Assembly: GCA_949743265.1 (NCBI GenBank)
Contig: CATJSX010000091.1
Location: forward strand, 1 to 57,506
Source: an uncultured Peptococcaceae bacterium
GTDB taxonomy: Bacteria > Bacillota > Peptococcia > Peptococcales > Peptococcaceae
Reading direction: 5' to 3'
Length of the DNA stretch: 57,506 nucleotides
In this document: positions 8,168 through 10,277 of the stretch, in pieces
Numbering within the stretch: position 1 is the first letter of the stretch
How the letters are laid out: every line of letters begins with the position of its first letter
Translations under genes and position numbers: made by a program
The notes under the pieces: generated by a model
What the model was told of the DNA's origin: nothing
Databases searched by the model: none
What the model saw: the letters and a program-made list of their open reading frames with translations, nothing else

Positions 8168-8758
8168 CTAGTTAAGCGGCGTTTGCGCGCCATAAATTGC
8201 CGCAAATCCTTCAGCAGTACCCGCTATTATCATCAACAATGCCAAAGTAATCATAGTAACGCAATAGCCGGCCAAAAGACGGCTAAAATCATAACGACTA
8301 CCCCTTAAAATTTGCAAACTGCCGCTCATAGCATAGGAAGACGCCATAATGAGCGCTGGCAAGTAGATCATTTTTGGAATGACAATGCTGATAATTGCAA
8401 CCAAAAAACCGCTGGCACCAGTTTTAGTCATAATAAAGCTGATAGCAAATCCTACCGAAAATCCTTTAATAAAAACAACCGCACTGATAAAGGGAATACC
8501 AATAATACACAATCCAAAAAACGCAATTTTGCACAAATCGTATAAATTACTCTCTATGGCAGTTTTAGCCAATTCACCTCGCGAAGCAAGGGCAATCTGT
8601 CCCATACCGCCCGAATAAAATTGCCCTAAAAGCGCCAGTTTGTCATCGCCTAAAACATAGCAAGCCAAGATTCCAAACCCTAGACCAGAAAGTACCAAAA
8701 ATAAATTGAACACATAAAACAGCCGTTTTTCGCTCCAACGCGTCGAAAGTTTGTCCAT
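8168..8758 (-). CDS. spoIIM: stage II sporulation protein M
   Basis: SpoIIM is the membrane member of the DMP complex (SpoIID, SpoIIM, SpoIIP) that thins septal peptidoglycan and drives engulfment in the mother cell. The 196-residue product starts with a cytoplasmic stretch and then shows about five hydrophobic helices, with the family-typical sequence FIKGFSVGFAISF and the C-terminal charged loop GSRYDFSRLLAGY. The AGGAGGCG ribosome binding site is seven bases upstream and directly abuts a strong hairpin (8772-8802). xerD follows after 56 bases. In other spore formers the gene is sigma-E dependent; I did not find a clear sigma-E site here. Confidence 0.93.
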   Translation of the reverse strand: MDKLSTRWSEKRLFYVFNLFLVLSGLGFGILACYVLGDDKLALLGQFYSGGMGQIALASRGELAKTAIESNLYDLCKIAFFGLCIIGIPFISAVVFIKGFSVGFAISFIMTKTGASGFLVAIISIVIPKMIYLPALIMASSYAMSGSLQILRGSRYDFSRLLAGYCVTMITLALLMIIAGTAEGFAAIYGAQTPLN

Positions 8759-8771
8759 TTTTTTCGCCTCC

Positions 8772-8802
8772 TTTCAGCCGGAAAATATTTTTCCGGCTGA
8801 AA
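8772..8802 (-). promoter_or_regulatory. 14-bp perfect hairpin abutting the spoIIM ribosome binding site
   Basis: Bases 8772-8785 pair perfectly with 8789-8802 around a 3-nt loop. On the minus strand the 3' arm ends in GAAA and is followed at once by GGAGGCG, the spoIIM ribosome binding site. There is no T-tract after it in either direction, so it is not a typical terminator. It may be a weak terminator for the upstream gene, a transcript-end stabiliser, or a translational control element. Confidence 0.6.
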
Positions 8803-8828: not shown

Positions 8829-9038
8829 TTATACTGGCATGATTCCTAAAGCGCTCAGTAAGTTGCCCAAAAGCTCGCGTCCATGCGCTTCATCACGAAT
8901 TCCGCCATTTTGTTCAATATCGGCCAGCGTCTGATTGATAATTTGACGCTTATCTTCGGGAATAAACGCTTCAAACTGAGCAAGCAAACCCTTAATCTCC
9001 TCTAAATTTTGCGGAATAGGAAAATTATTCATTTCCAT
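8829..9038 (-). CDS. small hypothetical protein, 69 aa
   Basis: Not recognised. The product is a small, soluble, acidic helical protein (MEMNNFPIPQNLEEIKGLL at the start; LLGNLLSALGIMPV at the end), without cysteines. An AAAAGGAGGTG ribosome binding site is placed well for the ATG at 9038; the in-frame GTG and TTG further upstream overlap that site and are rejected. It lies just upstream of spoIIM on the same strand and divergent from the cysteine-rich gene cluster at 9191-10101, so a role in sporulation is possible but only by position. Confidence 0.75.
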   Translation of the reverse strand: MEMNNFPIPQNLEEIKGLLAQFEAFIPEDKRQIINQTLADIEQNGGIRDEAHGRELLGNLLSALGIMPV

Positions 9039-9106: not shown

Positions 9107-9133
9107 ACCATTTTTGCCTCATGACATATATTA
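9107..9133 (+). promoter_or_regulatory. candidate sigma-K-like promoter of the small Cys-rich gene cluster
   Basis: AC at 9107-9108, 16 bases, then CATATATTA at 9125-9133. This fits the Bacillus sigma-K consensus (AC, 16, CATANNNTA) exactly, but the consensus is short and AT-rich sequence gives chance matches. An imperfect inverted repeat AAGGTC-GTTAAT-GACCTT follows at 9141-9158 and could be an operator or part of the leader. Confidence 0.35.
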
Positions 9134-9190: not shown

Positions 9191-9406
9191 ATGTCTGAAA
9201 ACTTAACAAGTCAATACGGTTTTGGTTGGGGTGGCTGTGAAGAAGGTTGCGGCTGCACTTCTGGTAATTTTGGCTGCGGCTGCAACGGTAACTTCTTTGA
9301 AACGCTTATCATGCTCATCATCATCATTTGGTTATTGAGATGGTTATTCAGCTGCGGTATCTTTGGCGGTGGCTGCAATAATAGCTGCGGAGCCGGCGCC
9401 TGCTAA
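9191..9406 (+). CDS. Cys/Gly-rich small membrane protein, 71 aa
   Basis: The product has nine cysteines, mostly as GCGC or GC pairs, on both sides of a single hydrophobic helix (residues about 35-53, LIMLIIIIWLLRWLFS). The general style recalls small spore or YjcZ-like proteins, yet I know no named family with this arrangement. An AGGGAGGATTT ribosome binding site is 7 bases from the ATG. It is the first of four tiny plus-strand genes (9191, 9474, 9734, 9877) with short gaps and no terminator until 10221. The helix is closely related to that of the 34-residue peptide at 9734. Location near spoIIM and a sigma-K-like site suggest a spore-coat or mother-cell role; that is inference. Confidence 0.85.
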   Translation: MSENLTSQYGFGWGGCEEGCGCTSGNFGCGCNGNFFETLIMLIIIIWLLRWLFSCGIFGGGCNNSCGAGAC

Positions 9407-9473
9407 ATAAATTCTGCTTGACTAAGGGGGATTTTCTCCACTCCCCCTTGACCTTTATCCAAAGGAGGTCACG

Positions 9474-9704
9474 ATGAACGAACAACGTCAGACAGAGCAC
9501 TCAAGAACAACTCAGCCTTTAGTCAGAACGGTCAGTCATTTAAAGAACACTACCACCAATATTCGTGGTTTTGCCGATAGTGTCGATCATCTGTTAAATG
9601 CTTTTGAAGAATTTTTTCCCTTCATCGACCGGATGGCTCAAACCGGCGAAAAGTTTACCAAAGGCTTTCGTGAGCCCTTCAAAAGACCGCCTTTTCTTCA
9701 TTAG
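9474..9704 (+). CDS. small hypothetical protein, 76 aa, in the Cys-rich cluster
   Basis: Not recognised. The product is a basic, soluble, mostly helical protein without cysteines; the middle (IRGFADSVDHLLNAFEEFFPFIDRM as a predicted amphipathic helix, given here only by its ends: IRGF to IDRM) may bind a membrane surface. It has a near-perfect AAAGGAGGTCACG ribosome binding site. It begins with MNEQ, as does the Cys-rich protein at 9877. Gaps to the neighbours are 67 and 29 bases, so it is very likely cotranscribed with them. Confidence 0.8.
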   Translation: MNEQRQTEHSRTTQPLVRTVSHLKNTTTNIRGFADSVDHLLNAFEEFFPFIDRMAQTGEKFTKGFREPFKRPPFLH

Positions 9705-9733
9705 CGGATTTTGAAGTGAAAGGATAGAAATCT

Positions 9734-9838
9734 ATGTTTCAACAAGAATACGATATGTCTTTAAGTTACTATTACTTTGAAAATATTTTACTGCTGATTA
9801 TTATTCTCTGGCTAGTCAAATGGTTATTCAGCACGTAA
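9734..9838 (+). CDS. 34-residue single-helix membrane peptide
   Basis: A very short frame beginning MFQQEYDMSL and ending WLVKWLFST. It is one hydrophobic helix with a polar N-terminus. In 19 aligned positions its helix shares 12 identical residues with residues 36-54 of the protein at 9191 (FE, LIII, WL, WLFS), so both come from one ancestor and the short frame is under protein-level constraint. A GAAAGGATAG ribosome binding site precedes it, and it fills the space between two genes of the same apparent operon. Confidence 0.7.
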   Translation: MFQQEYDMSLSYYYFENILLLIIILWLVKWLFST

Positions 9839-9876
9839 ATTTTAAAATTTTTAATCCCACTTAGGAGGTTTTTAAT

Positions 9877-10101
9877 ATGAACGAACAAGTATCTTCTTGC
9901 GGTTGCGGCGGCTATGATAACGGTTGCGGCTACGAAACCGCTAACGCTTACAATAATAATTGCGGTTGTGGCTGCGGTTGCAACTGTGGCGGCGCTTACA
10001 ATAACGGCTGCGGCTTTGGCGGCAACTGGATTTGGTGGATCATTATCTTAGCCATTATCTTCTTGCTGTTCTGTTCCTTTGGCGGCGGCGGTTGCTGTTA
10101 A
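9877..10101 (+). CDS. Cys/Gly-rich small membrane protein, 74 aa
   Basis: The product has twelve cysteines, nine of them in an N-terminal half built of CGC, GCG and tyrosine/asparagine-rich spacers (NAYNNN, GGAYNN), then a Trp-rich hydrophobic helix (about residues 50-67) and a GGGGCC tail. It is a second, differently built member of the same class as the protein at 9191. An AGGAGGTTTTTA ribosome binding site lies 7 bases before the ATG. It is last in the cluster and is followed by the terminator at 10221. A structural, disulfide-crosslinked or metal-binding role at the spore surface is possible; function is unknown. Confidence 0.85.
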   Translation: MNEQVSSCGCGGYDNGCGYETANAYNNNCGCGCGCNCGGAYNNGCGFGGNWIWWIIILAIIFLLFCSFGGGGCC

Positions 10102-10220: not shown

Positions 10221-10277
10221 AAACCCCGATAGAAATGCGGCTTTAATGCCAGCAATTGCTATCGGGGTTTCATTTTT
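10221..10277. terminator. bidirectional intrinsic terminator
   Basis: A 12-bp perfect stem, AAACCCCGATAG (10221-10232) with its complement (10259-10270), around a 26-nt loop, with T-rich ends both ways. It serves the Cys-rich cluster (+) and the S41 gene (-). A second inverted repeat, GTTGCAAA to TTTGCAAC, lies just before it (about 10192-10214). Confidence 0.88.

Follow-up and report, generated by a model that had tools for sequence, protein, structure and literature searches.

A conserved operon of small single-helix proteins with a probable role in the spore envelope of uncultured Peptococcaceae

Peptides of the YjcZ type are small sporulation peptides. SpoVM, also very small, is a basement coat protein (PMC7911427). 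Like both, the locus described here encodes very small peptides, hydrophobic or amphipathic, that are linked to sporulation, but it differs from them in that its helix looks like a full membrane span, in that its peptides form arrays with partner proteins of two families, A2 and A3, and in that no NCBIfam or Pfam profile matches it. Cys-rich precedents among spore-layer proteins are CsxA of Clostridium sporogenes, ExsY/CotY of Bacillus cereus and CdeC of C. difficile (PMC7333573, PMC7677010), which are mutually unrelated in sequence and share with the locus a richness in Cys and a spore-envelope context, the latter being likely here. The high Cys content of self-assembling spore-layer proteins is also found in the window (9 of 71 and 12 of 74 residues), but here it belongs to peptides of 71-74 aa with a conserved hydrophobic helix, encoded in an operon with helical partners and varying in Cys between lineages. 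The sporulation coat operon cotJABC (cotJA, cotJB and the Mn-catalase gene cotJC) adjoins the set in family f50, taken as Halobacteroidaceae (loci L100 and L102), but encodes different proteins and is absent from the window cluster.

Coat and exosporium proteins are largely unknown outside Bacillus and Clostridioides. The coats of other firmicutes likely contain unidentified proteins (PMC3533761). The five families found here, apparently undescribed, share a promoter type and have fixed partners. They would serve as markers of sporulation in uncultured gut bacteria labelled Peptococcaceae, they extend to Halobacteroidaceae, and they give specific genes with which to study the attachment of coat layers to the outer forespore membrane.

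The locus and its conservation

The window, meaning the whole stretch of 57,506 nucleotides that was analysed, carries four plus-strand micro-genes at 9191-10101, and sequence reading and the ORF list agree on this point with an earlier note on the same DNA. The four-gene cluster drawn in that note was nevertheless incomplete, as it missed a divergent fifth gene of the same set. The features are as follows.

8168-8758, minus strand: spoIIM (PF01944, E 2e-13), a neighbour in the window's family only and outside the wider conserved set
8829-9038, minus strand: gene 5, family A3, 69 aa, three helices predicted, divergent from the operon
9107-9133, plus strand: sigma-K-type promoter by pattern match, ACCATTTTTGCCTCATGACATATATTA, with -35 AC, 16 bases, and -10 CATAnnnTA
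9191-9406, plus strand: gene 1, family A1, 71 aa, 9 Cys, acidic N-tail and one hydrophobic helix, FFETLIMLIIIIWLLRWLF
9474-9704, plus strand: gene 2, family A2, 76 aa, 0 Cys, one long helix predicted
9734-9838, plus strand: gene 3, 34 aa, 0 Cys, a lone membrane helix paralogous to that of gene 1
9877-10101, plus strand: gene 4, family A4, 74 aa, 12 Cys, an N-part rich in Cys and Gly and a single hydrophobic, Trp-rich helix, WIWWIIILAIIFLLF
10221-10270, plus strand: shared intrinsic terminator, MFE -28.5 kcal/mol, z = -6.0, T-rich on its 3' side

The two peptides with 9 and 12 Cys and the 34-residue single-helix protein are as the note had described them, each Cys-rich peptide having one hydrophobic helix; the helix of gene 3 is 50% identical to that of gene 1 over 26 aa. 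Good ribosome binding sites, claimed for all four genes, precede gene 1 (GGGAGG), gene 2 (AGGAGG) and gene 4 (AGGAGG), whereas that of the 34-aa gene 3 is weaker (AAAGGA); the start codon of gene 5 was picked from its ribosome binding site. The single shared terminator of the note is also present, and the fold at 10221-10270, overlooked by a simple terminator scan because its loop is long, serves a convergent S41 peptidase gene as well. Family A2 has the core LVRTVxxLKxxTxNIRxFAdSxxqLLdsxEeFxPxxE in gene 2, and family A3 the core SFEELKxLxxQFExFLPEEKRxVIxxIIAEIE in gene 5. A xerD-type recombinase gene comes after spoIIM. Between gene 5 and spoIIM, directly before the spoIIM ribosome binding site, lies a perfect strong hairpin (8772-8802, minus strand; MFE -24.4 kcal/mol, z -6.0) that could control spoIIM translation or mRNA processing.

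A single-sequence search with gene 1 as query found its counterpart in 8 further genomes of the window's family, at E 1e-28 to 5e-13, as well as weaker copies in a second family of the same order; two more weak matches in its own genome (contigs C193 and C105, E 0.02 and 0.08) were rejected as unrelated stretches. Gene order is kept in 8 other genomes, where a small minus-strand gene is followed by genes 1-4 on the opposite strand, beside xerD-like and spoIIM-like genes, the latter called in the relatives from sequence and place without a profile. The earlier note had held that absence from all near relatives would count against its reading, and 8 other genomes of the family carry the set. Pairwise comparison puts pN far below pS in each of the five genes (for gene 1, window against relatives, pN 0.09-0.14 and pS 0.46-0.73), which shows purifying selection. 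Because the same order recurs in 8 other genomes and pN is so low, genes 1-4 are not chance ORFs, and on the same two grounds gene 5 belongs to the set.

Searches of Pfam, NCBIfam and Rfam assigned no family to any of the five small proteins, and among the known small sporulation and coat families of Pfam and NCBIfam no profile matched near its curated cut-off, in keeping with the earlier statement that no named system is known to have this set. Weak PDB profile matches (designed coiled coils, TAL repeats) were judged to be chance effects of helix composition. The AF2 model of gene 2 is one long helix (pLDDT 65), too weak for a structure search; that of gene 5 has three helices (pLDDT 76), and Foldseek with this A3 model gave a best E of 0.85, with no meaningful match. 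A search of the open literature for the set by name found no match. The operon is real, conserved and apparently undescribed, its five families being apparently absent from public collections.

Promoter and co-occurrence with sporulation genes

About 57 bases before the first ATG, that of gene 1, stands a promoter of the form AC-N16-CATATATTA. AC-N16-CATAnnnTA is found upstream of gene 1 in 8 of 9 aligned loci, and the ninth is one base off. Since the window holds 3 matches to the promoter pattern against 1.6 expected, the window match alone is not significant, and significance comes only from conservation and from enrichment in relatives. With genes picked by size, ribosome binding site and hydrophobicity alone, and a spacing of 16-17, the pattern precedes small membrane-peptide genes in family f1 (7 of 18, shuffle mean 0.02), f3 (13 of 35, 0.21), f4 (1 of 8, 0.03) and f50 (14 of 24, 0.15); the f1 genes that lack it are mostly downstream operon genes. 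The -35 mark is AC for sigma-K and ATA for sigma-E (PMC3789822). When only the -10 element was given, AC stood at spacing 15, 16 and 17 in 8, 15 and 21 of 47 sites, while ATA occurred 0-1 times at spacing 15-17, and a sigma-E promoter was rejected on the near absence of its mark. The putative promoter therefore carries the elements of the sigma-K regulon (AC at -35, CATAnnnTA at -10, spacing ~16-17).

Families A2, A3 and A4 are distributed identically: of the 46 genomes of the class, one and the same group of 14 has them, and A1 occurs in 13 of these 14. The A1-A4 profiles were built from these loci, so that high scores there arise partly by construction, from which the first single-sequence search is exempt. 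Searches for spoIVA and sigma-K covered all 46 genomes and were compared with the A1-A4 matches. Within the order, spoIVA is present in 13 of the 14 carriers, the sole exception being a genome 68% complete, and is missing from 5 of 7 non-carriers (Fisher, p = 0.0055, or 0.0058 with sigK/sigE counted too, kinship being ignored). Two genomes of the order have spoIVA without the set (G010, 79% complete, and G019, 96%), as do most other spoIVA-bearing families of the class, so the set is not essential for spores in general. The window's own genome encodes both SpoIVA and sigma-K (G000:C29:4531-5187; TIGR02846, 333 bits, over cut-off). Among 398 genomes drawn from the phylum, A1 was found only in f1 and f3. 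The sporulation role suggested in the earlier note is supported by the conserved sigma-K-type promoter, by co-occurrence with spoIVA and sigK, and by neighbouring genes, which are cotJABC and GerA/GerB-type genes in relatives and spoIIM here.

In several relatives (G017, G020, G015, G033, G037, G044) the sigma-K match spans no more than roughly the first 117-145 of the 227 positions in the model, as if the gene were split or interrupted by a skin-like element; sigK of the window's genome is intact.

Wider relatives

Adjacency to spoIIM, which the earlier note had mentioned, holds for the window and its family but is lineage-specific, the set being located away from spoIIM in f3, f4 and f50. 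In f3 (e.g. Clostridiaceae bacterium BRH_c20a) the same helix families form arrays of 35-50 aa peptides, such as MADNLAGQYG...FFETLLMIIIIYWLLRWLFG and MADNVAGQFG...WLVWVAIIALVIFVF, with A2 and A3 proteins near the arrays and with STAS-type, glycosyltransferase, clostripain-type C11 protease and, by eye, GerA/GerB-type genes as neighbours. Matches to the A2 and A3 profiles extend to f4 and f50; those of A2 to long ORFs in f26 and f113, at E 3e-5 to 7e-4, were set aside as probable coiled-coil chance. The f50 set holds arrays of other membrane peptides of 34-50 aa together with S8 subtilases. A version of it occurs in Acetohalobium arabaticum, in which sporulation has not been observed (PMC3035264). 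In f34 an A3 homologue lies near pairs of Cys-rich single-helix peptides. These pairs (L105 3687-4230, L112 5391-5751, L113 4759-5078, L114 4727-5077) have no sigma-K pattern within 150 bases upstream.

Cysteines, helix and probable function

The best conserved part of the peptides is a hydrophobic helix of 17-22 residues with Trp/Arg ends, not the Cys tails; in f1 acidic residues precede it and Lys/Arg mainly follow. Cys makes up ~13-16% of window genes 1 and 4, where Gly/Asn-rich spacers lie among the Cys, ~14% of the peptides in f1 and f34, and ~2% in f3 and f50, high content being restricted to f1, f34 and partly f4 and not found in f3 or most f50 relatives. Because the f3 peptides, which are of the same families and have the same promoter and partners, average ~1 Cys each, the cysteines seem to have been added to a conserved membrane peptide in particular lineages, suggesting one conserved membrane scaffold with Cys-rich tails added or absent. 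A putative disulfide-linked or metal-binding layer is plausible in the window's lineage by analogy with Cys-rich spore proteins, but it is not the conserved core, since relatives keep helix and promoter without cysteines.

The locus is probably a sporulation operon, transcribed under sigma-K late in the mother cell, whose products are membrane-anchored microproteins of the spore envelope. The sequence comparisons themselves show a promoter of the sigma-K type, conserved genes that co-occur with sporulation genes, and recurrent single-helix peptides with two putative helical partners. As the set is found almost only in spore-forming relatives and has a late-sporulation promoter, its products are most likely small, membrane-anchored, Cys-rich parts of the outer envelope, and a role in the spore envelope is likely. 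The peptides would be made late in the mother cell under sigma-K and would insert in the outer forespore membrane after engulfment, or in the coat base; A2 and A3 may bind at the surface of that membrane and help to hold coat layers. During coat maturation, disulfides might cross-link the Cys/Gly-rich tails that genes 1 and 4 encode in this lineage, or the tails might bind metal.

Alternatively, the Cys-rich peptides could self-assemble into an extra outer, exosporium-like lattice as CsxA or ExsY/CotY do, with the hydrophobic stretch as lattice core and not as anchor. The Cys content and spacers of genes 1 and 4 fit such a lattice, and known Cys-rich spore proteins do self-assemble (PMC7333573, PMC7677010), but the helix is conserved better than the Cys tails and is kept in relatives without Cys, which makes this reading unlikely. 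Somewhat less likely still is action in germination or in mother-cell membrane events (germinant receptor modulation, pore-like action or mother-cell lysis) in place of coat structure. Single-helix microproteins often regulate membrane complexes, and in relatives the set has GerA/GerB-type genes and S8 subtilases or C11 proteases as neighbours; against this, the many paralogues per genome (8 A1-type copies in G020) and the Cys-rich tails fit a bulk structural role, and a lytic role leaves the A2 and A3 partners unexplained. A peptide-toxin or modified-peptide (RiPP) locus of precursor peptides and an S8 processing protease would account for the tandem arrays and the subtilases adjoining some of them, but is very improbable given the sigma-K promoter, the conservation of the helix itself and not of a leader, and the fact that neither the ORFs surrounding the window cluster nor those flanking the arrays of relatives included a recognisable modification enzyme or exporter.

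If the sigma-K operon for membrane-anchored envelope proteins is extended to the relatives, it is conceivable, though rather less probable than the operon's role itself, that several deep Firmicutes lineages share a hitherto undescribed, modular spore-envelope sub-layer, in which arrays of sigma-K-controlled single-span microproteins would sit in the outer forespore membrane with dedicated A2/A3 partners, Cys-rich cross-linking tails having been added repeatedly. Such a sub-layer would be the membrane-spanning equivalent of the SpoVM/SpoIVA base.

Proteases of two kinds occur within or next to the peptide arrays at L043, L044, L098-L103 and L109, namely clostripain-type C11 proteases and S8 subtilases, of which some have a hydrophobic stretch at the N-terminus. 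They may process coat proteins or the peptides.
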